A DNA stretch of 21,486 nucleotides from a virus, in IMG/VR virus record IMGVR_UViG_3300024265_000223, positions 1 through 21,486 of that record; one strand, 5' to 3'. The translations under genes were made by a program, and so were the position numbers. How positions within the stretch are numbered: the first letter of the stretch is position 1; every line of letters begins with the position of its first letter. The notes below the pieces were generated by a model that was not told where the DNA came from, did not search any database, and saw only the letters and a list, made by a program, of their open reading frames with translations. Below, piece after piece: positions 5,531-15,676 of this stretch.

Positions 5531-5701
5531 ATGACTAAAAAGGTCAAAACCCAAAAACAAAAAAAGAATCAAGATGCCGCTGCACTCGGTCGACTCGGAG
5601 GTCAATCGGTAGCTCGTAAGCGTGGGAAGGCCTACATGAGCAAGATCGGTAAAAAAGGCGCTCAAGCCCGTTGGGGTAAGAAGAAAAAGAAGTCAAAATA
5701 G
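5531..5701 (+). CDS. Small very basic KGG-like protein (56 aa)
   Basis: The frame has 56 codons and about a third of the residues are Lys or Arg. The centre, A-L-G-R-L-G-G-Q-S-V-A-R-K-R-G followed by I-G-K-K-G-A-Q-A-R-W, is close to the Gly/Lys repeat of KGG-motif (GsiB-like, general-stress) proteins and to small nucleoid-type proteins. The ends are Lys-rich tails. The protein probably binds nucleic acid. The gene is a complete unit with its own promoter, start codon at the 5' end of the transcript and terminator overlapping the stop codon, so it may be expressed strongly and alone. Confidence 0.7.
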   Translation: MTKKVKTQKQKKNQDAAALGRLGGQSVARKRGKAYMSKIGKKGAQARWGKKKKKSK

Positions 5702-5723
5702 CCACGAATCAGTGTGGCTTTTT
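5700..5723 (+). terminator. Rho-independent terminator after the KGG-like gene
   Basis: AGCCAC (5700-5705) pairs with GTGGCT (5714-5719), with an eight-base loop and a run of five T. The 5' arm begins inside the TAG stop codon, an economical overlap. Confidence 0.75.
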
Positions 5724-5751
5724 GCTGTATAAATAATTAACAAAAAAAACC

Positions 5752-6021
5752 ATGAAAGAAGAACAACCAAAAGCACCTGGAATACCTGAAGCACCTAGTG
5801 TTCCTGAAGAACTCCAAAAAAGAGTCAATGCATTTAATGAGAAGGTAACTCCATTACTGGCAGAATTTAGACTTGGTATTTCTGCACAACCGGTAGTAAT
5901 GCCTGATGGTAGACTAGGGGCAATACCAATAATGGTTGATGCTGACAAAATATCAAAAGGTAGACCTGTCGATATTAAAGAAAAAGTAGAAGAAGAAAAG
6001 GGTAATCTAGCAGAAGCATAA
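5752..6021 (+). CDS. Hypothetical protein (89 aa)
   Basis: Pro/Glu-rich N-terminus, a helix, then a beta-hairpin-like stretch Q-P-V-V-M-P-D-G-R-L-G-A-I-P, and an acidic Lys/Glu tail. The M-P-D-G-R motif recalls small phage proteins of unknown role that sit near membrane protein genes. A 20-base leader (5732-5751) with AATAATTAAC and eight A precedes the ATG, with no Shine-Dalgarno. Function unknown. Confidence 0.7.
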   Translation: MKEEQPKAPGIPEAPSVPEELQKRVNAFNEKVTPLLAEFRLGISAQPVVMPDGRLGAIPIMVDADKISKGRPVDIKEKVEEEKGNLAEA

Positions 6022-6022
6022 T

Positions 6023-6268
6023 ATGTTATTCGTACTTGGAATCATTGTCGGTATGTCTATAATGGGTACTATTGTATCTGTACTGATATATTTCAGAAGT
6101 AAAATCGAACCGAAGTTGGCTGTGATGGAGAAGATAGTAGAGAATGCCGGGCCTAGACCAAAGGGCTTTATAGTCGAACCTATTAGCGAGGCCGATGAGA
6201 TTAGGGATGAAGTTATTGCTAAGAATAGAGAAAAAGGCGAAGATACTCCCATAAAAGATTTACGATGA
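6023..6268 (+). CDS. Single-pass membrane protein (81 aa)
   Basis: Residues 1-23 form one hydrophobic helix rich in Gly, Ile and Val, followed by a basic residue and a soluble, charged tail of about 55 residues, so a signal-anchored protein with a cytoplasmic tail is likely. Stop and next start overlap as ATGA. No family recognised. Confidence 0.7.
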   Translation: MLFVLGIIVGMSIMGTIVSVLIYFRSKIEPKLAVMEKIVENAGPRPKGFIVEPISEADEIRDEVIAKNREKGEDTPIKDLR

Positions 6269-6585
6269 ATAAACTATCATACAAAGACGCAAAAGAGTTA
6301 AAAGATGCGGGATTTCCACAGGGTGAACCAAATAGTTGGTCAGTTCAATTTGCTGATAGACCCAAGCAAGAAATAAAGGGAAATCCATTTGAAGAATATA
6401 TCCCCACCCTCTCAGAACTTATAGAGGCGTGTGGAGATGATTTTTCCCATTTAAAAAAGCTTGAAACTAGTTGGATAGCTGTTACTCATTCTGCTTTTGA
6501 CGAGAATGGAAATAACTTTGAAGAATTTGGCAAAACCCCAGAACAAGCAGTAAAAAATCTATGGATAAAGTTAAACAAAAAATAA
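6265..6585 (+). CDS. Conserved hypothetical protein (106 aa)
   Basis: The sequence shows K-E-L-K-D-A-G-F-P-Q near the start, Y-I-P-T-L-S-E-L-I-E-A-C-G in the middle and G-K-T-P-E-Q-A-V-K-N-L-W at the end. This looks like a common small phage or bacterial protein of unknown function that I know by pattern only. The start overlaps the upstream stop by four bases; it lies immediately before groES with one spare base. Confidence 0.7.
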   Translation: MNKLSYKDAKELKDAGFPQGEPNSWSVQFADRPKQEIKGNPFEEYIPTLSELIEACGDDFSHLKKLETSWIAVTHSAFDENGNNFEEFGKTPEQAVKNLWIKLNKK

Positions 6586-6586
6586 T

Positions 6587-6868
6587 ATGAAAATTATCCC
6601 AAGAAAAACACAAATATTAGTCAAACCCGATAAAGCTTTATCGGGAACGACTGAATCTGGTTTAGTAAGACCAGACAACGAAGAGAAGGAAAAGAAAGCC
6701 ATCGGCACAGTCGAAGCCGCAGGCCCTGAAGTTAAAGATGTGAAAAAGGGTTATCGCGTCATTTATGGTCAGTTCGCTGGTGAGCCGATAGGTTTTGAGC
6801 AAGATAAGGACGATGAATACATACTCCTATTTGATGAAGATGTCTTAGCCGTAGTAGTAGAAGAATAA
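6587..6868 (+). CDS. groES: GroES-like co-chaperonin (Cpn10)
   Basis: The length of 93 residues is that of Cpn10. The N-terminal I-x-P-x-x-x-x-I-L-V-K-P strand, a mobile loop at about 17-33 containing S-G-L-V (the hydrophobic tripeptide that docks on GroEL), G-T-V-E-A-A-G-P-x-V-K-x-V-K-K-G, V-I-Y-G and the C-terminal Y-I-L-L-x-D-E-D-V-L-A-V-V are all present. It should form a heptameric lid for the GroEL encoded at 7325. The mobile loop differs from the usual bacterial G-G-I-V-L, which would suit a phage-specific partner. Two short genes separate it from groEL, unlike the adjacent host arrangement. Confidence 0.9.
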   Translation: MKIIPRKTQILVKPDKALSGTTESGLVRPDNEEKEKKAIGTVEAAGPEVKDVKKGYRVIYGQFAGEPIGFEQDKDDEYILLFDEDVLAVVVEE

Positions 6869-9105: not shown

Positions 9106-9447
9106 ATGGAAAAAGCAAAAGAATGTCTTGAATATCTTGTTAATAATATAGTTGAAAACAAGGAAGCAGTAAAAATAGATGTTAAGCATGATGAGAAAGG
9201 AGTTCTATTAGAACTTCATGTAGCAGAGGAAGATATGGGAAGAGTTATTGGTAAGAAAGGAAAAACTGCGGATGCAATGCGAATATTTATAAGAACAATC
9301 GGTGCGCGAGAGAAAGCCAATGTATCACTTATGATTATTGAGCCAGAAGGATCTTCTAAATTTAGAAAGCCTGAACCTGTTGCACAAGATGATAATGATG
9401 CAAGTAAGGGAGGTACAAGTTACGAAGATGCATCAGCGGGAATATAA
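9106..9447 (+). CDS. KhpA-like KH-domain RNA-binding protein
   Basis: Residues 1-80 match bacterial KhpA (YlqC) over its whole length. There is a first helix and two strands (L-E-L-H-V), then E-E-D-M-G-R-V-I-G-K-K-G-K-T-A-D-A-M-R with the G-x-x-G loop (G-K-K-G, 49-52) between two helices, and a final strand V-S-L-M-I-I-E. A polar, probably disordered tail of 30 residues follows. Bacterial KhpA pairs with KhpB and binds many RNAs; a phage copy may bind phage transcripts or the structured RNAs described here, which is inference. No Shine-Dalgarno; AT-rich leader. Confidence 0.85.
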   Translation: MEKAKECLEYLVNNIVENKEAVKIDVKHDEKGVLLELHVAEEDMGRVIGKKGKTADAMRIFIRTIGAREKANVSLMIIEPEGSSKFRKPEPVAQDDNDASKGGTSYEDASAGI

Positions 9448-9454
9448 TAATCTG

Positions 9455-10570
9455 ATGGAAATCAAGGGAATAAAACCATATGAGAAGAATGCAAAGAAAC
9501 ACCCGAAAAAACAGATTCGCCAGCTTGCTAATATAATAAAAGAGGTTGGTTGGCGACAACCTGTTATCGTTAATCAAGAGGGTGTGATTGTAGTCGGTCA
9601 TGGCAGATACGAGGCCTACGTGCAACATGCTAAAGAGCTTGGCTTGAGCCCAGTATGGATCATTGACGATATAGGGAAAACATTAAGTGGTAAGCCATCC
9701 AATATTCCACTAACGCCAGAGCAGGAAAAGACGTATCGATTGGCTGATAATAAACTTAATGAATCTGATTGGGATATGAAGCTTGTGTTACCAGAGCTTC
9801 AATCCCTTTCACTACCAATGGTTTCTCTCACTGGATTCGACACGGATTTAATTTTAAAGCCAGAAGATAAAGACGATCAAGTTCCTGCTACACCAGAAAA
9901 GCCGAAGTCTAAACTAGGTGATATTTACCAGCTAGGAAACCACAAAGTTATATGTGGTGACTCCACAAAAAAAGAGGACGTTGAAAAATTAATGAATGAG
10001 CAGAAACCAGATATGGTATTTACTGATCCACCTTATGGACTTGGTGGCTATGGAGGTAGAAACAATATGGATTTAAAAGGTGACGATGAAGATGTGCAGA
10101 AATTCTATGATTGTATTCCCTACGATATTGAAGAGAGATATATTTGGGGTAATGCCTATAATTTAGCGAACCTTAACCAAAAGCCAAGAGATGTCATAGT
10201 CTGGGTAAAAAATAATTTTGGGCTTGGTAAAGGATACCGAGGTCAATATGAATTATGTTTTTATTACGGAAAGTTTGCTGGTAGCGATAGCGATGTATGG
10301 AAAGTAGATAAAGAAACTAGATACGAACATCCAACACAGAAGCCAGTCGAATTGGCGGTCAGAGCCATGAAGAATAGTTCTAAAGTTGGGGGTGCAGTTT
10401 TGGATTTATTTGTAGGTTCAGGCTCAACCCTTATAGCTTGCGAAAAAACAAAAAGGATATGCTATGGGATGGAGATAGATCCAAAATATGTGGATGTAAT
10501 AGTGAGCCGATACTGTAAATTTGTCGGCAGTAACAAAATAATTCGCAATGGTAAACAGGAGCAGTGGTAA
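9455..10570 (+). CDS. ParB/Srx-like domain fused to a DNA N6-adenine/N4-cytosine methyltransferase
   Basis: The ATG at 9455 gives 371 residues; the in-frame start at 9338 would only add KH-gene antisense-frame sequence. Residues 1-130 are a ParB/sulfiredoxin-like domain (Q-P-V-I-V, then V-V-G-H-G-R-Y-E-A at 46-54). Residues 155-371 are a beta-class amino-methyltransferase in which the catalytic D-P-P-Y (191-194) precedes the cofactor motif D-L-F-V-G-S-G-S-T (317-325), with H-P-T-Q-K-P at 292-297. Such fusions are common in phages and prophages and methylate phage DNA, perhaps against restriction. Which base is modified cannot be read from the sequence. Confidence 0.88.
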   Translation: MEIKGIKPYEKNAKKHPKKQIRQLANIIKEVGWRQPVIVNQEGVIVVGHGRYEAYVQHAKELGLSPVWIIDDIGKTLSGKPSNIPLTPEQEKTYRLADNKLNESDWDMKLVLPELQSLSLPMVSLTGFDTDLILKPEDKDDQVPATPEKPKSKLGDIYQLGNHKVICGDSTKKEDVEKLMNEQKPDMVFTDPPYGLGGYGGRNNMDLKGDDEDVQKFYDCIPYDIEERYIWGNAYNLANLNQKPRDVIVWVKNNFGLGKGYRGQYELCFYYGKFAGSDSDVWKVDKETRYEHPTQKPVELAVRAMKNSSKVGGAVLDLFVGSGSTLIACEKTKRICYGMEIDPKYVDVIVSRYCKFVGSNKIIRNGKQEQW

Positions 10571-10581
10571 TTAATAATTAA

Positions 10582-10724
10582 TTTGATCTCTACCCCCCGG
10601 TAAGGTTTAATCTTCAAACATTTTCCTTACTGGGAGTCATTTGGTTGATTCCCTCGGTGTCTGCATCGACCCAGACCGTCAACACTGTCCTGGATAGGTT
10701 GGCAGCCGGGGGATAGGGATTAAA
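10582..10724 (+). ncRNA. Multi-hairpin structured RNA, copy A of a two-copy family
   Basis: A closing helix joins 582-600 to 706-724 (offset 10000) with 18 of 19 positions paired (two G-U, one C-A mismatch). Inside are four hairpins: 10601-10605/10625-10629, GGGAGTC 10632-10638 with GATTCCC 10647-10653, GTCTG 10659-10663 with CAGAC 10672-10676, and GTCAAC 10678-10683 with GTTGGC 10698-10703. The closing helix and the GGGAG-TCATTT hairpin recur at 14785-14887 with compensatory changes. The element fills the otherwise gene-free gap between the methyltransferase and a small membrane protein gene. No known riboswitch or ribozyme signature recognised. Confidence 0.75.
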
Positions 10725-10731
10725 TAAAATA

Positions 10732-10863
10732 ATGACCAAATCATCAACTATAATTTCAACAGTAGTATTAGCATTAATCACGGCTTGTCTATTTGTTGCA
10801 TTGATTCATTATGGCATCGAGCCAGTGATTCTAGCATTTATAGATGCAGCTCGTGCATTTTAA
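10732..10863 (+). CDS. Small membrane protein (43 aa)
   Basis: ATG lies eight bases after the structured RNA. Residues 7-26 are a hydrophobic helix (I-I-S-T-V-V-L-A-L-I-T-A-C-L-F-V-A-L-I), then H-Y-G and a second shorter apolar stretch. It resembles single-pass phage membrane peptides. No family recognised. The upstream RNA could be its leader or an independent transcript. Confidence 0.55.
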   Translation: MTKSSTIISTVVLALITACLFVALIHYGIEPVILAFIDAARAF

Positions 10864-10881
10864 AAGAAAGTGGGGTGAAAT

Positions 10882-11076
10882 ATGAAAGATAAATTTGATT
10901 ACCACAAACCAACAGACGAGCAGAAAGAAGATATGCAGGCGAATAGGGATGCCTATAAAGCTCTCTATGCACAGCTTGAGACCCTACCAGATGGTAGAGA
11001 GAAGAGTTTAGCTCTCACAAGGCTTGAAGAGTCTGCTGTATGGGCTAATAAAGCTATCGTGTTCGAGGAAAAGTAA
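10882..11076 (+). CDS. Acb2-like anti-CBASS cyclic-oligonucleotide sponge
   Basis: The 64-residue protein matches the Acb2 (Acb2/Tad1 helical hairpin, T4 Vs.4-related) family by pattern. It has F-D-Y-H-K-P-T-D-E-Q at 5-14, then a first helix with R-D-A-Y-K-A-L-Y, a turn T-L-P-D-G-R-E, and the hallmark second helix K-S-L-A-L-T-R-L-E-E-S-A-V-W-A-N-K-A-I. Known members form hexamers that bind and hide the cyclic di- and trinucleotide signals of CBASS defence. This one is a little shorter than described members. The ATG is preceded by a purine-rich GGGGTGA at 10871-10877. Assignment is by memory of the family pattern, not a search. Confidence 0.72.
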   Translation: MKDKFDYHKPTDEQKEDMQANRDAYKALYAQLETLPDGREKSLALTRLEESAVWANKAIVFEEK

Positions 11077-11088
11077 ACAAAATAAAAA

Positions 11089-11132
11089 CCGAGGACCAAT
11101 TATTGGATATACCTCGGGAAAACCGTCGTTTT
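11089..11132 (+). terminator. Hairpin pair, possible terminator after the Acb2-like gene
   Basis: CCGAGG (11089-11094) pairs with CCTCGG (11112-11117) around an inner CCAAT/ATTGG hairpin. Directly after it AAAAC/GTTTT (11119-11123/11128-11132) makes a second small hairpin ending in T. The position 12 bases past a stop fits a terminator, though the T-run is short. Confidence 0.4.
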
Positions 11133-11158
11133 ATTCTGTATCAATAACCTCTATATTA

Positions 11159-11181
11159 TATAATTTAATTGACACAGTGTC
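11159..11181 (+). promoter_or_regulatory. TATAAT box with a palindromic operator-like site
   Basis: TATAAT at 11159-11164 has no good -35 box. The perfect palindrome GACAC-A-GTGTC at 11171-11181 lies where transcription would start, a usual place for a repressor site. The ATG of the next gene is at 11197. Confidence 0.35.
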
Positions 11182-11196
11182 TAGAAAGTTATCAAC

Positions 11197-11352
11197 ATGG
11201 CAAAATATCAAAAATTAATCACACCAATCTTTACGCTCGTACTCGTATTTGGTGGACTAGCTATGATATGGATTTGGAGTTCTTGGCAGATTGCAGTAGG
11301 TTTATTCTTCGTAGTCTGGGGGAATAATGTAATGGAAAAGAATAGTCGATAA
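11197..11352 (+). CDS. Small two-pass membrane protein (51 aa)
   Basis: Residues 7-30 (I-T-P-I-F-T-L-V-L-V-F-G-G-L-A-M-I-W-I-W) and 31-41 (Q-I-A-V-G-L-F-F-V-V-W) are two hydrophobic segments split by S-S-W, followed by a short polar tail. A holin-like topology is possible, but the gene is far from the lysin at the left edge. The stop overlaps the next ATG by one base. No family recognised. Confidence 0.6.
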   Translation: MAKYQKLITPIFTLVLVFGGLAMIWIWSSWQIAVGLFFVVWGNNVMEKNSR

Positions 11353-11492
11353 TGCCTAAGAAATCTAAAAACTATAAAGGGGCTCAACCCCAATCTTTCA
11401 AAGGAGAAAGAATAACATTTGTAAAAAAAGCTAACATGCAATGCCGAACTTCGTTTGAAGGAGGCAAACAAAAAGTAGAATGGCTGAAGTAG
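11352..11492 (+). CDS. Small basic hypothetical protein (46 aa)
   Basis: ATG overlaps the upstream stop (TAATG) and the end overlaps the next gene by 13 bases. The product is Lys-rich (M-P-K-K-S-K-N-Y-K-G) with a short beta-like part and one Cys. Overlap on both sides supports a real gene in an operon; no function can be given. Confidence 0.5.
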   Translation: MPKKSKNYKGAQPQSFKGERITFVKKANMQCRTSFEGGKQKVEWLK

Positions 11493-11776
11493 ACCAAACA
11501 AGAAATTTAAACCCTTCACCGGAAGCCGTAGTTGCTATGGTTATCTGGGGGAAGGAATATTCCGAACAAGGAGGTGGATCTATGGATTTCTGGGATCAAT
11601 TGGATAAACCCAGAAAGAATAGATGTAGATCGGTGGTAAAAGAAATACATGGACGAGGCATGGAAAAAGCAAAAGAAGATATATTGGAATTTATAAAAGA
11701 AAGACAGAAAATGGGGCATGAACCGCATACCATTATTCAAAGTTTAAAAACAAAATTATCAGTAGAAAGGAGGTAA
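11480..11776 (+). CDS. Conserved hypothetical protein (98 aa)
   Basis: The N-terminal half, P-S-P-E-A-V-V-A-M-V-I-W-G-K-E-Y-S-E-Q-G-G and S-M-D-F-W-D, is a strong pattern that looks conserved; the C-terminal half is a basic helical segment. I recognise it only as a recurring small phage protein of unknown role. Its last codons contain the Shine-Dalgarno of the next gene. Confidence 0.7.
   Translation: MAEVDQTRNLNPSPEAVVAMVIWGKEYSEQGGGSMDFWDQLDKPRKNRCRSVVKEIHGRGMEKAKEDILEFIKERQKMGHEPHTIIQSLKTKLSVERR
11767..11774 (+). promoter_or_regulatory. Full-length Shine-Dalgarno before the gene at 11780
   Basis: AAGGAGGT lies five bases before the ATG at 11780 and overlaps the end of the upstream gene. 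It is one of the few full anti-16S matches in the window, together with AGGAGGT at 14426-14432, and shows that the host ribosome can use such sites. Confidence 0.8.
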
Positions 11777-11779
11777 AAC

Positions 11780-11941
11780 ATGGCACAAGGACCACACGTA
11801 CACGAATGGAAATATAACGAAGCTGAAATATATCGTAATGACCAAAGAGAATTAAGACAATGCACCGTAGTTAGATTTTGTGTTCATCCAGGGTGTTTAG
11901 AAGTAGAAGAAGTTGAGTTAAAAGTTGCTAAGAAGAAATAA
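11780..11941 (+). CDS. Small Cys/His protein (53 aa)
   Basis: The start is fixed by a full Shine-Dalgarno. The sequence has H-V-H-E-W near the N-terminus, then Cys28, Cys34 and C-V-H-P-G-C (34-39), enough ligands for one zinc. The C-terminus alternates Glu and Val and ends K-K-K. It is probably a small zinc-binding protein. Function unknown. Confidence 0.65.
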   Translation: MAQGPHVHEWKYNEAEIYRNDQRELRQCTVVRFCVHPGCLEVEEVELKVAKKK

Positions 11942-11944
11942 ACC

Positions 11945-12439
11945 ATGAATATGAATTACAAAAAAGAAGTAGAAAAGTGGTTGAACGAAAATACGCCTTA
12001 TCCAGGAGTAAAAACTTTAAGTTGGGTAGATACAGAGAACCTCGTTAGAAAATTCGCCAACTACCTCACGCTTTTAGCAAAGCCCGAAGGGGAGTGTTGT
12101 GAGAAGTGTATAAAATATGAATCTATATTAAATCATCCGACTCAAATCACTTGCACAAACCCAAACTGCCCCTGCCATAATGAAAAGAGAGAGGAGAAAG
12201 TTGATTTAGGTGCTCGTAATTCAACTGGAAATCCCGAATATGACCAAGAAGAAAAGAAAGAGATAGAATTACTGCCGAAATATAAGCGTGAGTATTATGA
12301 GAAAAAGGAAGAAGGTGGATTTGTTTCTGAATGTGGATATAAAGAAATACCAAGTCAAGAAGAAGTTGTAGAAAAAATCAACCAACTAACTAAATCAATT
12401 AACACCCTATGGGGAATAGTGAGGGGGAAAGGAGAATAA
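11945..12439 (+). CDS. Hypothetical Cys-rich protein (164 aa)
   Basis: Helical N-terminus (W-L-N-E-N-T-P-Y-P-G), then E-C-C-E-K-C at about 50-55 and C-T-N-P-N-C-P-C-H at about 70-78, which together could hold a zinc. A long charged helical region rich in Glu and Lys follows. The start at M1 or M3 cannot be separated. No family recognised; it is followed by a gene with an AAAGGAG ribosome site. Confidence 0.65.
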   Translation: MNMNYKKEVEKWLNENTPYPGVKTLSWVDTENLVRKFANYLTLLAKPEGECCEKCIKYESILNHPTQITCTNPNCPCHNEKREEKVDLGARNSTGNPEYDQEEKKEIELLPKYKREYYEKKEEGGFVSECGYKEIPSQEEVVEKINQLTKSINTLWGIVRGKGE

Positions 12440-12440
12440 T

Positions 12441-12626
12441 ATGGAGAAATTTATAGTTGAAGTAAATAGACGAGCTGGATATACAGATATTAAATTTGGC
12501 TGGATTGGTTGGAAGTTTGTTTGGGCAGCATTTATTGCTTGTGTGTTTGGAAAAACTTTTATGTTTACAGCTAAAACTGGGGAAATGAACTTTACCCCCC
12601 AACCAAACCAAATAAATAAAAAATAA
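12441..12626 (+). CDS. Hypothetical small protein (61 aa), possible membrane segment
   Basis: AAAGGAG at 12428-12434 places the start at 12441. The middle, W-I-G-W-K-F-V-W-A-A-F-I-A-C-V-F-G, is hydrophobic and could be one membrane helix; the ends are polar. No family recognised. Confidence 0.6.
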   Translation: MEKFIVEVNRRAGYTDIKFGWIGWKFVWAAFIACVFGKTFMFTAKTGEMNFTPQPNQINKK

Positions 12627-12627
12627 T

Positions 12628-12756
12628 ATGAGAATAAATTTCAAAAGAACAATAGGATACTCAGAGTTATTACCCACCATCACCTTGGATTGGGGAGCTA
12701 GAAGACTGAAAATATATATTGGTTGGTTAATTGGATTTATGGCGATAAATTTCTAA
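12628..12756 (+). CDS. Hypothetical small protein (42 aa)
   Basis: The ATG follows the previous stop by one base (TAATATG). A basic start is followed by T-I-T-L-D-W-G and an apolar end Y-I-G-W-L-I-G-F-M-A-I. Its G-W-x-x-G pattern is like that of the preceding gene, so the two may be small membrane-associated partners. Weakly supported because of its length. Confidence 0.45.
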   Translation: MRINFKRTIGYSELLPTITLDWGARRLKIYIGWLIGFMAINF

Positions 12757-12825
12757 TCCCCTCAAAAGGGTAAATAGAGATGGAGAGCTTGGTACTGGGT
12801 GTGTAGAGTATGGAGATTTAATTCT

Positions 12826-13080
12826 ATGGAGAACAAGACAACCACAGAGTTACTAAATCTCTTACAAAGTTTAGTAGACGAAGATGGTAAAACAAAAGAA
12901 GGGTATGAAGAGGCATATGCAGAACTACGAAAGCGTGAGCCATTTGAAAGTATCCTTGAAAGTGAATATCAAACTGGAGAAAGTTTAGAAGAAAAAGTCG
13001 CAGAGTTAGAGGCCGATGTTAAAGAATTAAAACGTCATAAGCACGATGAGAAAAATGGAGATGTGCTTATAAGAATCTAA
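12826..13080 (+). CDS. Hypothetical protein with C-terminal coiled coil (84 aa)
   Basis: The ATG at 12826 is preferred over an in-frame GTG at 12799 because M-E-N-K-T-T-T-E-L-L begins a regular helix. The last third, E-E-K-V-A-E-L-E-A-D-V-K-E-L-K-R, has clear heptads and should form a coiled coil, so the protein probably oligomerises. The rest is acidic and helical. Function unknown. Confidence 0.65.
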   Translation: MENKTTTELLNLLQSLVDEDGKTKEGYEEAYAELRKREPFESILESEYQTGESLEEKVAELEADVKELKRHKHDEKNGDVLIRI

Positions 13081-13149
13081 CCAATTTCTATATTATCTAC
13101 CACCCAGCCCCCAGCCCTTCATCTAATCAACAAAGTAAATAAAAGGAAT

Positions 13150-13362
13150 ATGAGAAAGAACAAATACAAGGAAAGAAAATTTATTACAGTAGATACCTCT
13201 AAAAAGATAAGAAAAAGATTTGATAATATAAAAAGTATTGCTATTAAAGACGGTCTTATTTCAAATGATACAACTTTGTGGGATGAATTATTTGATGTAT
13301 TTTTAGAAGAATTAGGAGAATTTGCACTTGAAATTAGGAAACACACAATTGAGAATCACTAA
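13150..13362 (+). CDS. Hypothetical small protein (70 aa), possibly ribbon-helix-helix
   Basis: A basic N-terminus (R-K-N-K-Y-K-E-R-K) leads into one beta strand K-F-I-T-V-D and two helices (K-K-I-R-K-R-F-D-N-I-K and W-D-E-L-F-D-V-F-L-E-E-L), which is the order of a ribbon-helix-helix DNA-binding protein. Size agrees with that fold. AAAGGA lies just upstream of the ATG. The assignment is from secondary-structure reading only. Confidence 0.55.
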   Translation: MRKNKYKERKFITVDTSKKIRKRFDNIKSIAIKDGLISNDTTLWDELFDVFLEELGEFALEIRKHTIENH

Positions 13363-13385
13363 CCCCAATAAAACCAAGATAAATT

Positions 13386-13835
13386 ATGAAGAAGTGCACT
13401 AGTTGTAAAATAGAAAAACAGTCGAGTGATTTTCCGCCACAAAAGTTAAAGAAAGATGGTAGATCATCTCATTGTCGAGAATGTCATAAAAAGTCGTATA
13501 AAAAATGGTATTACAGTGGAGGCAAAATTGTGGGTAGAAAGGCAAATCAAAGATGGCGTAAGAAAAATACGGATAAATATAAAGAGAATACGGCAAGAAA
13601 TTATACATCAAAAGATAAACTAACTGATCCTATTAAAATTAAAGCTAATATGGAATTTCGCAAAGCACTAAAGACAGGGAAAATAAAACGAGAACCCTGT
13701 GAATTCTGTGGGAATCCCAAGTCAGAAGGACACCACCATGATTATACCAAGCCTTTATTGGTAAGATGGGTATGTAAAAGGCATCATTTGTTAGTTCATA
13801 GTTTTATCAGAGATTTTATAGAATTTAATAAATAA
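13386..13835 (+). CDS. HNH-type endonuclease-like protein with N-terminal zinc knuckle
   Basis: C-T-S-C (4-7) and C-R-E-C (30-33) make an N-terminal zinc site. The C-terminus shows C-E-F-C (105-108), G-H-H-H-D-Y at 115-120 and C-K-R-H-H-L-L-V-H (130-138), the metal and catalytic pattern of small phage HNH proteins. The region between is very basic (R-W-R-K-K-N), suiting DNA binding. It may be a free-standing homing-type nuclease or a helper of packaging; it is about 1.3 kb upstream of the terminase genes. No nearby intron is evident. Confidence 0.8.
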   Translation: MKKCTSCKIEKQSSDFPPQKLKKDGRSSHCRECHKKSYKKWYYSGGKIVGRKANQRWRKKNTDKYKENTARNYTSKDKLTDPIKIKANMEFRKALKTGKIKREPCEFCGNPKSEGHHHDYTKPLLVRWVCKRHHLLVHSFIRDFIEFNK

Positions 13836-13841
13836 CTAACC

Positions 13842-14087
13842 ATGAATATACAAGAAAAAATTAAAGTATGTTCAGAATGCCAAGCCGAACCATATAGTGA
13901 TGGTACAGAGAATCACATGCTTTGGTGTTCACAGAATAAAAACAAATTAGTAGCGGTAAAATGCCTAGATTGCACAGCAGTATTTTACATTGATAAAGAT
14001 AAATTAGAGGAAACGAGATGTCCGCACTGTTTTGACCATAAATGCCCCGAAGGTAGAGTAAAATTACATGGAAAATATGCCAAATAA
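13842..14087 (+). CDS. Small zinc-finger protein (81 aa)
   Basis: C-S-E-C (10-13), a further His and Cys, C-L-D-C (41-44) and C-P-H-C (60-63) give two possible zinc sites, the later pair being a typical zinc ribbon (C-x2-C, 15 residues, C-x2-C). The end overlaps the next gene by 20 bases. Such proteins often contact nucleic acid or a host protein; no more specific role can be read. Confidence 0.7.
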   Translation: MNIQEKIKVCSECQAEPYSDGTENHMLWCSQNKNKLVAVKCLDCTAVFYIDKDKLEETRCPHCFDHKCPEGRVKLHGKYAK

Positions 14088-14385
14088 CAAAAACAAAAAA
14101 GAAGGATGGGAGGAGAGATTCAAGGAAATAGGACATTGTATCAGAACTGATAATCCATATAACTTTAGATTTGTTAAGAACTTTATCAATGATGAACTCC
14201 AAGCCCAAAAGAATGAGATTATAGAGATGATAAGCGGAAGACTTGGTAGATTTGAAGATAGTATGGATGTATCAAGTGTAGGGGAAAACGGTACAATTCA
14301 TACATCTGATTACAAGAAAGGATATAGAGATGCAATTTTTGAGCTACTAAAGAAATTTCCTAAAGCAATAGAAAAACTAAAATGA
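14068..14385 (+). CDS. Hypothetical protein (105 aa)
   Basis: A Lys/Asn-rich start, W-E-E-R-F-K-E-I-G, and a helical centre, then S-D-Y-K-K-G-Y-R-D-A-I-F-E-L-L-K-K. The ATG at 14077 is another possible start and would shorten the overlap with the upstream gene. No family recognised. Confidence 0.65.
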   Translation: MENMPNNKNKKEGWEERFKEIGHCIRTDNPYNFRFVKNFINDELQAQKNEIIEMISGRLGRFEDSMDVSSVGENGTIHTSDYKKGYRDAIFELLKKFPKAIEKLK

Positions 14386-14410
14386 CAGAGATGATAAAAT
14401 ACTGTATAAT
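14382..14410 (+). promoter_or_regulatory. Sigma70-type promoter before two zinc-ribbon genes
   Basis: ATGACA (14382-14387) and a perfect TATAAT (14405-14410) are 17 bases apart. The -35 box overlaps the stop of the previous gene. The transcript would have a leader of about 20 bases including the Shine-Dalgarno at 14426-14432, and could run on into the RNA block at 14741-15123. Confidence 0.65.
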
Positions 14411-14437
14411 ATAGTCAGCACATTTAGGAGGTAAGAA

Positions 14438-14587
14438 ATGATTCGAATAAAAATAGTCTGTCTTTTCTGTAATAGAGAAATGAGGGTGTGGATTCGCAAT
14501 TTGAGTCAACAGACTAAAGTAACCTGCCCGCACTGCATGGCGACTCTTAACTACAAGTACCAAGCGGAGGTGAATAATGGTAATTAA
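14438..14587 (+). CDS. Zinc-ribbon micro-protein (49 aa)
   Basis: C-L-F-C (8-11) and C-P-H-C (30-33) at the ends of two short beta hairpins form a minimal zinc ribbon that makes up nearly the whole protein. AGGAGGT six bases... upstream fixes the start. It overlaps the next zinc-ribbon gene by 11 bases, and both probably descend from the same simple fold. Transcription-factor-like contact with host RNA polymerase is one option, unproven. Confidence 0.7.
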   Translation: MIRIKIVCLFCNREMRVWIRNLSQQTKVTCPHCMATLNYKYQAEVNNGN

Positions 14588-14741
14588 GAAAACCAAAGAC
14601 GGCTATGAGTGTGACTGCGGAGGCAAGATCGAAGTTCGCAGGACAGTCAAAACTCTCCAGGGATATTATATCAATGGAAAGTGTATGAAGTGTGATGGCT
14701 TCAAGATTTTCAAGGTCAAATTCAAACCTCCAAATCGTTAG
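14577..14741 (+). CDS. Zinc-ribbon micro-protein (54 aa)
   Basis: C-D-C (12-14) and C-M-K-C (36-39) are spaced as in a zinc ribbon, with a basic R-R-T-V-K-T strand between and a basic tail. It starts inside the previous gene in another frame (AATAATGG, GGAGG nine bases upstream). Together they form a two-gene unit under the promoter at 14382. Function unknown. Confidence 0.65.
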   Translation: MVIKKTKDGYECDCGGKIEVRRTVKTLQGYYINGKCMKCDGFKIFKVKFKPPNR

Positions 14742-14772
14742 TGCTGGTGAAATCGAAAGAAAGTAGCCAGCA
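14741..14772 (+). ncRNA. Small hairpin after the zinc-ribbon pair
   Basis: GTGCTGG (14741-14747) pairs with CCAGCAT (14767-14773, ending in a G-U pair), with a purine-rich loop of 19 bases. No T-run follows, so it is not a classical terminator. It may protect the 3' end of the zinc-ribbon mRNA or be part of the RNA block that follows. Confidence 0.4.
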
Positions 14773-14784
14773 TAACTTTAACAA

Positions 14785-14887
14785 TTAAATCTTTTCCCCT
14801 GACGAAAGTCGGGAGGTCATTTTGACTCCTGATGCGATTGTGGTTTTTAATCGTTAATCGTAATCGCCATCGGGGGAAAGGGTTTAA
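14785..14887 (+). ncRNA. Multi-hairpin structured RNA, copy B of the two-copy family
   Basis: A closing helix of up to 18 bp joins 14785-14802 to 14870-14887, with three G-U pairs near the outside. Inside are a GAAA-capped hairpin (14801-14810), a GGAG-GTCA/TGACTCC hairpin (14812-14829, one bulged G) and a hairpin GATGCGATT 14831-14839 with AATCGCCATC 14862-14871. The inner end of the closing helix competes with the third hairpin for two bases. Closing helix and GGGAG-TCATTT hairpin are shared with 10582-10724. It ends four bases before tRNA-His, so the two are probably on one transcript. Confidence 0.72.
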
Positions 14888-14891
14888 CATG

Positions 14892-14963
14892 TGGATGGTG
14901 GTGTATCTGGTAGCACATCACTTTGTGGTAGTGAGGGAGGCAGTTCAAATCTGCTCCATCCAA
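14892..14963 (+). tRNA. tRNA-His (anticodon GTG)
   Basis: A complete cloverleaf: acceptor TGGATGG/CCATCCA, D-stem GTGT/GCAC with loop ATCTGGTA, anticodon stem TCACT/AGTGA with loop TTGTGGT (anticodon GTG), four-base variable loop, T-arm GGCAG-TTCAAAT-CTGCT. The discriminator base is A and the first pair is T-A; the usual G-1/C73 identity pair of tRNA-His is not formed (G at -1 faces A73). No CCA is encoded; CAA follows. Confidence 0.88.
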
Positions 14964-14985
14964 CAAGTAGACATTTTATAAGCTA

Positions 14986-15049: not shown

Positions 15050-15123
15050 GCACTGGTAGTTTAACGGTAAGAATAACCGAGTTTGTTACTCGGGAGATCC
15101 AGGTTCGACTCCTGGCCAAGGCG
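15050..15123 (+). tRNA. Divergent tRNA, probably tRNA-Thr (anticodon TGT)
   Basis: The T-arm CCAGG-TTCGACT-CCTGG, the D-arm GTTT-AACGGTAA-GAAT and the anticodon stem CCGAG/CTCGG are all good. The seven-base loop TTTGTTA puts TGT at 34-36. Oddities: two mismatches in the acceptor stem (C4-A69, A3-G70), one extra base between D- and anticodon stems, and T instead of a purine at position 37. It ends four bases before the small-terminase ATG. It may be a decaying or specialised tRNA. Confidence 0.7.
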
Positions 15124-15127
15124 CAAT

Positions 15128-15676
15128 ATGAGCAAACCTGAAAATTGTGGAAAATGTAAGAAGCCTAAGAGTGCCTGTAAATGCGGGCGACCCGAGGTTG
15201 TTACTAAAGAAGTCCTCCAAAAACTAAAGGACGCTTTCATGTACACTTTTAGTGACGAAGAAGCGTGTTTATATGCAGGTATCTCAACAAGTACTCTATA
15301 TAATTACCAAAAGAAATACCCAGAGTTCTTGGAGATAAAACAGCAACTTAGACTACACCCCAATATGAATGCGAAGAAAGAATTGGTTGATCAGATAAAG
15401 GGCAACATAGATCAAGCTAAGTGGTGGGCCAAGAATCACAAGAGTATGCGTGGCGACTTTGGTGAATTACAAGAACTAAAATCTACAGTACCTATGCTTG
15501 AAGTGGAAGGAAGTGATGCTGAAGTCGATGCACTGACGAGAAAATATAACAGTGATTTGCGTGCGTTATATGCCAAGGGACCAGATCAGAAAGAAGAGCC
15601 TAAAAAAGAGGAACCTAAACCTAAACCAAAAAAAGATGTCAGCAAGCAAGATCCACAAGTGGCTAAGGGAAAATAA
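15128..15676 (+). CDS. Terminase small subunit
   Basis: The ATG at 15128, five bases after the tRNA, gives 182 residues; an in-frame TTG at 15083 lies inside the tRNA and is rejected. The N-terminus has C-x-x-C-K-K-P and C-K-C-G, then at about 40-63 T-F-S-D-E-E-A-C-L-Y-A-G-I-S-T-S-T-L-Y-N-Y, the helix-turn-helix that small terminases use to grip packaging DNA. P-N-M-N-A-K-K-E-L-V and K-W-W-A-K-N-H then follow the usual family order. The C-terminus is a Lys/Pro/Glu tail. It overlaps the large terminase by 41 bases and would guide it to the pac or cos site. Confidence 0.85.
   Translation: MSKPENCGKCKKPKSACKCGRPEVVTKEVLQKLKDAFMYTFSDEEACLYAGISTSTLYNYQKKYPEFLEIKQQLRLHPNMNAKKELVDQIKGNIDQAKWWAKNHKSMRGDFGELQELKSTVPMLEVEGSDAEVDALTRKYNSDLRALYAKGPDQKEEPKKEEPKPKPKKDVSKQDPQVAKGK

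Follow-up and report, generated by a model that had tools for sequence, protein, structure and literature searches.

Structured intergenic elements with long closing helices in a phage of a probable parcubacterium

Results

Two structured elements in gene-free gaps

The stretch of phage DNA analysed here (IMG/VR record IMGVR_UViG_3300024265_000223, 21,486 nucleotides, hereafter the window) contains two real structured elements, A and B, which are probably RNA and probably related to each other, but do not make an established RNA family. Seen together with similar elements of related phages, they have the look of genuine RNA parts, readily replaced and with a putative function. We put at about even the chance that both are structured RNAs lying between cistrons, transcribed from the + strand together with their neighbours and released by RNase III and RNase P cuts.

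Element A (10571..10735, + strand) is multi-branched and begins directly at the stop codon of a ParB-like DNA methyltransferase gene (9338..10570, + strand; PHROG 498, Pfam N6_N4_Mtase; ORF bounds as listed, with an uncertain start), which is the synteny anchor on its 5' side. These limits include weak outer A-T pairs, and the core of the element is 10583-10723. The core is shut by the closing helix P1, whose arms are taken from a table of 17 pairs: the 5' arm at 10583..10599 (pair probabilities mostly >0.95) and the 3' arm, CGGGGGATAGGGATTAA, at 10707..10723. Enclosed are the less certain hairpin P2 (GGTAAGG...CCTTACT, 10602..10628; pair probabilities 0.66-0.74), hairpin P3 (GGGAGTCATTTGGTTGATTCCC, 10632..10653; 0.95-1.0), which the interior alignment finds in B as well, and hairpin P4 (10678..10703; 0.98-1.0), all on the + strand. 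A 43-codon ORF read from the sequence follows immediately 3' of the element (10732..10863, + strand).

Element B (14785..14887, + strand) lies immediately 5' of tRNA-His (GTG; 14892..14964, + strand; called by ARAGORN and by Rfam as tRNA), which begins four bases past the B helix. In the same table, and with the support of pair probabilities for the 5' arm, its P1 joins 14785..14801 to the 3' arm CGGGGGAAAGGGTTTAA at 14871..14887. Inside are hairpins P3 (14808..14833, including GGGAGGTCATTTTGACTCC; pair probabilities mostly 0.8-0.95) and P4 (14834..14867; 0.88-0.98), likewise on the + strand, and TTAA is present at both ends of the helix. The 3' synteny anchor is the ORF of the terminase small subunit, TerS (15083..15676, + strand; PHROG 4102), whose true start is probably downstream of the listed one.

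A previous sequence-only reading of the window had placed two structured elements in gene-free gaps, and this observation is confirmed. Its coordinates were right for both elements (with the weak outer pairs extending A), and no ORF of at least 60 aa occurs at either. As RNA, A folds with -62.8 kcal/mol (z -5.06) and B with -46.9 kcal/mol (z -5.32), values that no shuffle equals; on the - strand, A folds with a z of only -3.10. The helix score of A (47) was reached in none of 100 shuffles of the window's 3954 non-coding bases and that of B (39) in four. Stem scans of the non-coding DNA of the window identified three strong long closing helices, namely those of A, B and a further element, C (406-636).

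Neither A nor B has a promoter or terminator that rises clearly above chance. An intrinsic terminator, that is, a short GC-rich hairpin followed by a T run, is absent from A, and the single weak match inside B (tail AGGTCATTTT) leaves the total within about two standard deviations of shuffles. Neither ARAGORN nor Rfam called a tRNA or a tRNA-like cloverleaf with a T loop at either element, leaving tRNA-like RNAs unsupported. Judged by eye, the core sites of integron attC do not fit; a retron non-coding RNA was also rejected by eye, with no reverse transcriptase among ten scanned proteins.

Relationship between A and B

Homology of A and B is probable, not certain, as judged from their sequences. 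When the closing helices were compared by script in helix register, nine of the 17 pairs were the same, two differed on both sides and six on one side, including the C10593.A10713 mismatch in the closing helix of A. The two double-sided changes are exactly those claimed earlier (T10587-A10719 against A14789-T14883, and A10592-T10714 against T14794-A14878). Also seen were the reported C-G/T-G exchanges at three neighbouring pairs, with one further at 10598, and the hairpin GGGAG(G)TCATTT, present in both elements. Of the 17 positions of the 3' arms, 15 are identical (P = 5e-5 when pairs are shuffled, 0.0025 when blocks of three are); by itself the interior match, consisting of the shared hairpin, is weak (P = 0.12). 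The core of the closing helix has five G.T against one A.C, and the local alignment of A with B ranks fifth among all 435 pairs of similar elements.

The 5' arms are less straightforward. Their text match, ATCT-T-CCCC, is one base off the helix register in which the covariation was counted, and by our own count the arms agree as plain text at 10 of 16 positions with a one-base shift versus 9 of 17 in helix register. Since they match about equally when shifted, the double changes hinge on which register is used. Moreover, with only two sequences any differing helices look compensatory, so that covariation is not independent evidence here. MAFFT did not align full-length A and B in helix register, and the covariance model, R1, was built from shortened, hand-cut versions. 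Of the proposed family with covarying helices, the two members and the named changes stand; of the further homologues with significant covariation by which a single RNA family would be recognised, none was found, two sequences being too few for covariation to reach significance.

The searches for such homologues covered several collections. In IMG/VR, the 3' arm pattern occurred at 22 viral loci and the two-arm pattern at four, none with a related element; on inspection the loci were a terminator-like repeat, coding-like stretches and an unrelated GC-rich repeat. The repeated terminator-like motif lies near TTCCCCCAGGAACGGGGGAAAGGGGTTAA in L002, L004, L007, L009, L011, L014, L015 and L023, and has only the text of the A/B 3' arm in common with our elements. 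Comparison of A and B with phage records by blastn produced chance-level matches only. A covariance model search through related phages and Rfam had been suggested earlier; in our hands, with 380 Patescibacteria genomes included, it yielded no third member. In 1.0 Mb from 83 sources including the window, R1 matched nothing besides A and B, and its weak matches in five of the 380 genomes were taken as chance, the best being a 36-nt hairpin on both strands and the rest having E of about 0.005 per genome. The elements were rightly called unrecognised, as no Rfam family matches them: across the whole window only tRNAs reach the gathering score of an Rfam 15 family, and the top scores of local scans were 16.2 bits for A, where the cut-off is 49, and 16.4 bits for B, where it is 80. 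Of the two outcomes that the sequence-only reading had named as fatal to it, the lack of homologues and of supported covariation applies at the level of sequence, and identity with a trivial element such as a transposon end is unsupported. In position and architecture, A and B have many analogues.

Elements at the same junction in related phages

TerL relatives in the species-genome collection come only from Parcubacteria MAGs (Jorgensenbacteria, Nealsonbacteria and another Parcubacteria bacterium), from which we infer that the phage host is probably a parcubacterium; all three host MAGs have RNase III genes. The window encodes a Sak4-like protein, an exonuclease, a replication protein, GroEL- and GroES-like chaperonins, a KhpA-type KH protein, the ParB-like methyltransferase, terminase subunits and tRNAs. 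The gene for the KhpA/KhpB-type KH-domain RNA-binding protein (9106-9447) has relatives in 24 other contigs of the phage group. Queries with TerL, portal and methyltransferase collected about 170 viral loci.

Between the methyltransferase stop codon and TerS, a long-helix element is also present in L028, L030 and L045, starting 1, 3 and 284 bases after the stop, respectively. As whole contigs L028 and L030 share roughly 92% identity, with 94.1% in the 1200 bases that end at the stop and 94.6% beyond the element, but their elements are 45.6% identical, which is the level of unrelated sequences. By this comparison the cassette was swapped precisely from gene to gene. L030 additionally carries about 146 bases (~6518-6664) with tRNA-like text, inserted between the genes for Cpn60 and the methyltransferase and absent from L028. 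The unlike elements in near-identical contigs, taken together with this insert, show that phages of this group gain, lose and exchange structured cassettes with gene-to-gene precision. The closing helix is the feature that is shared and kept, unlike sequence and loops; between close relatives loops and even whole elements are replaced. The swap between L028 and L030 provides a natural experiment on the movement of intergenic RNA cassettes.

Long closing helices are not confined to this junction. In 86 related contigs, cleared of such duplicates as were recognised, the 79,689 non-coding bases contain 24 helices with a score of at least 40 (0.3 in shuffles) and 17 with at least 44 (0.1 in shuffles). 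On the opposite strand the corresponding numbers were lower (16 and 7), so that pairing is better on the gene-sense strand. With strand-neutral selection, arms contain 153 G.T against 102 A.C (P 0.0017 against equality, P = 0.07 after allowing for arm base composition), and 21 elements lean to G.T against 6 (P 0.006). The L028 helix pairs better on the other strand.

Many of the elements fall into two intervals, one before the operon homologous to 5531-6268 of the window and the other between Cpn60/methyltransferase and terminase. A strong element is present in the methyltransferase-terminase interval of 10 of the 54 contigs with both anchor genes, which makes it dispensable. Elements adjoin tRNA or tmRNA genes in several cases (B with tRNA-His, L146 with tmRNA and L195 with tRNA); in L146 a phage tmRNA (6953-7378; Rfam RF00023, 72.7 bits) is directly 3' of the long-helix element. 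Long helices also surround tRNAs or tRNA-like sequences at L127 2434-2537, L162 956-1074 and L152 2503-2646, and in the first two the enclosing helix lengthens the tRNA acceptor stem by many base pairs. Stable look-alike hairpins occur in gaps between structural genes of several relatives (L027 17764-17888, L035 8089-8237, L036 12560-12698, L039 5715-5840); their inner sides, CTCACTCT ... GYGATGAG-like, vary, and the hairpins might be a processing site.

Discussion

The proposal that A and B function as RNA is partly upheld. That they act as + strand RNA is moderately supported: G.U outnumbers A.C in the closing helices of related elements, and relatives occupy the same junction; covariation adds little to the argument. 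As both lack a clear promoter or terminator of their own and B ends four bases from a tRNA, co-transcription with cleavage by RNase III and RNase P is the simplest account. A and B would then lie on a + strand polycistronic message leading from the methyltransferase gene to the tRNA and terminase genes, and each transcript would fold into a multi-branched structure shut by a helix of ~17 bp. Most likely host RNase III would cut this long helix, and RNase P, acting at the 5' end of tRNA-His, would free the 3' side of B. Both predicted folds place long double-stranded RNA between cistrons, as expected of an RNase III site. The two kinds of cut would set free a stable RNA of 100-165 nt and split the upstream messages from the downstream ones. 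The account is grounded in the fold, the position, the A/B similarity, the same-junction analogues, the exact cassette exchange and the RNase III genes of the MAGs, from which we infer transcription, processing and any further role of the released RNA. Against this account speak the absence of A/B homologues past two copies, the composition-adjusted G.T excess (P = 0.07), the strand of the L028 helix and the presence of a strong element in only 10 of the 54 contigs.

Early mRNA of phage T7 has RNase III processing hairpins between genes. A and B resemble them in being intercistronic and in having a long imperfect helix with sequence free to vary, but their interior is branched with several hairpins instead of one, and their cleavage is predicted only. 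Phage tRNA/ncRNA islands are where GOLLD and ROOL sit. Like A and B, they are multi-branched, have no ORF and occur beside phage tRNA genes; A and B, in turn, are 103-165 nt long, are not large ornate RNAs and have no Rfam match. The nearest literature to A and B is that on these large phage-associated RNAs (PMC12286853). We found no literature on structured RNAs in phages of Patescibacteria. If they are processed RNAs, the elements would represent a reservoir of structured RNA that escapes family searches based on sequence, since helix and position last while the sequence changes.

It is conceivable, although rather unlikely in our estimate, that the released folded RNA and not the cut is the function, A and B being trans-acting small RNAs (regulators, decoys or counter-defence) that vary from phage to phage with the host or its defences. 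The exchange of whole elements by near-identical phages, patchy presence among contigs, adjoining tRNA/tmRNA genes and the nearby gene for a KhpA-type RNA-binding protein would all fit, yet beyond A and B no conserved loop sequence is common to the elements, no target is known and neither A nor B has a promoter of its own. It would be more speculative still, and we consider it unlikely, that Parcubacteria phages carry a class of exchangeable long-helix RNA cassettes, inserted precisely between genes at favoured sites and replaced as a whole among near-identical phages, which act in trans on the reduced host, for example as defence decoys, and are perhaps bound by the KhpA-like protein of the phage.

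A cis-regulatory leader, with a closing helix that would mask or free the start of the following gene (the 43-codon ORF at 10732 in the case of A), seems doubtful to us. An ATG does lie about nine bases past the end of A, and the 3' arm in L045 includes GGAGGTGATTAACTATG, a Shine-Dalgarno and start; in L028 and L030, however, the next ATG is some 20-30 bases past the helix, and what comes next after B is a tRNA gene and no ORF. We regard as improbable that A and B are mobile DNA cassettes whose terminal inverted repeats form a helix by accident, with no role as RNA. The like ends around unlike interiors in the two copies, the precise exchange at a single site (L028/L030) and the TTAA flanking the B helix would be in keeping with mobility, but the arms differ by G.T, with five to one A.C in the core, and not by mismatches at random, changes affect both arms together, and neither more copies with these ends nor a clear target duplication were found. 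As for a miniature transposable element in particular, which would have near-perfect terminal repeats, a target duplication and many copies, the arms are imperfect, the copies are two and no other locus with these ends holds an element. That A and B are chance folds in AT-rich gaps, with GC-rich arms alike by accident, is highly improbable, because shuffle tests exceed chance and relatives have same-junction analogues, even though there are only two copies, their interior likeness is not significant (P 0.12) and they are only the fifth of the 435 element pairs.

Element C as a candidate for a separate RNA family

Element C is a stronger candidate for a new RNA family, better supported than A and B. 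It shares with L027 3163-3324, L033 1667-1811 and L136 2819-2963 the motifs GGTGAC-ATA and CAAAYCC, a stricter form of which is found only in L027, L033 and L136 among viral contigs. In an alignment of these three elements, 16 of the 36 predicted pairs have at least one two-sided change with pairing kept. Like A and B, C and its relatives (145-231 nt) are intergenic, have a very long closing helix and belong to the same phage group. Unlike A and B, with which it has no sequence homology, C has these motifs, tRNA-like halves and its own sigma70-type promoter, a preceding TTGACT-16-TATAAT (11/12 match). The closing helices of C and its relatives are ~20 bp or more, and the 5' half of C resembles tRNA-Leu (GGCGGAATAGGTAGACGC). 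The T loop of the tRNA-like halves seems to be opened by an insert (GGTGACGATA ... CCGAACCAAAYCC in relatives).
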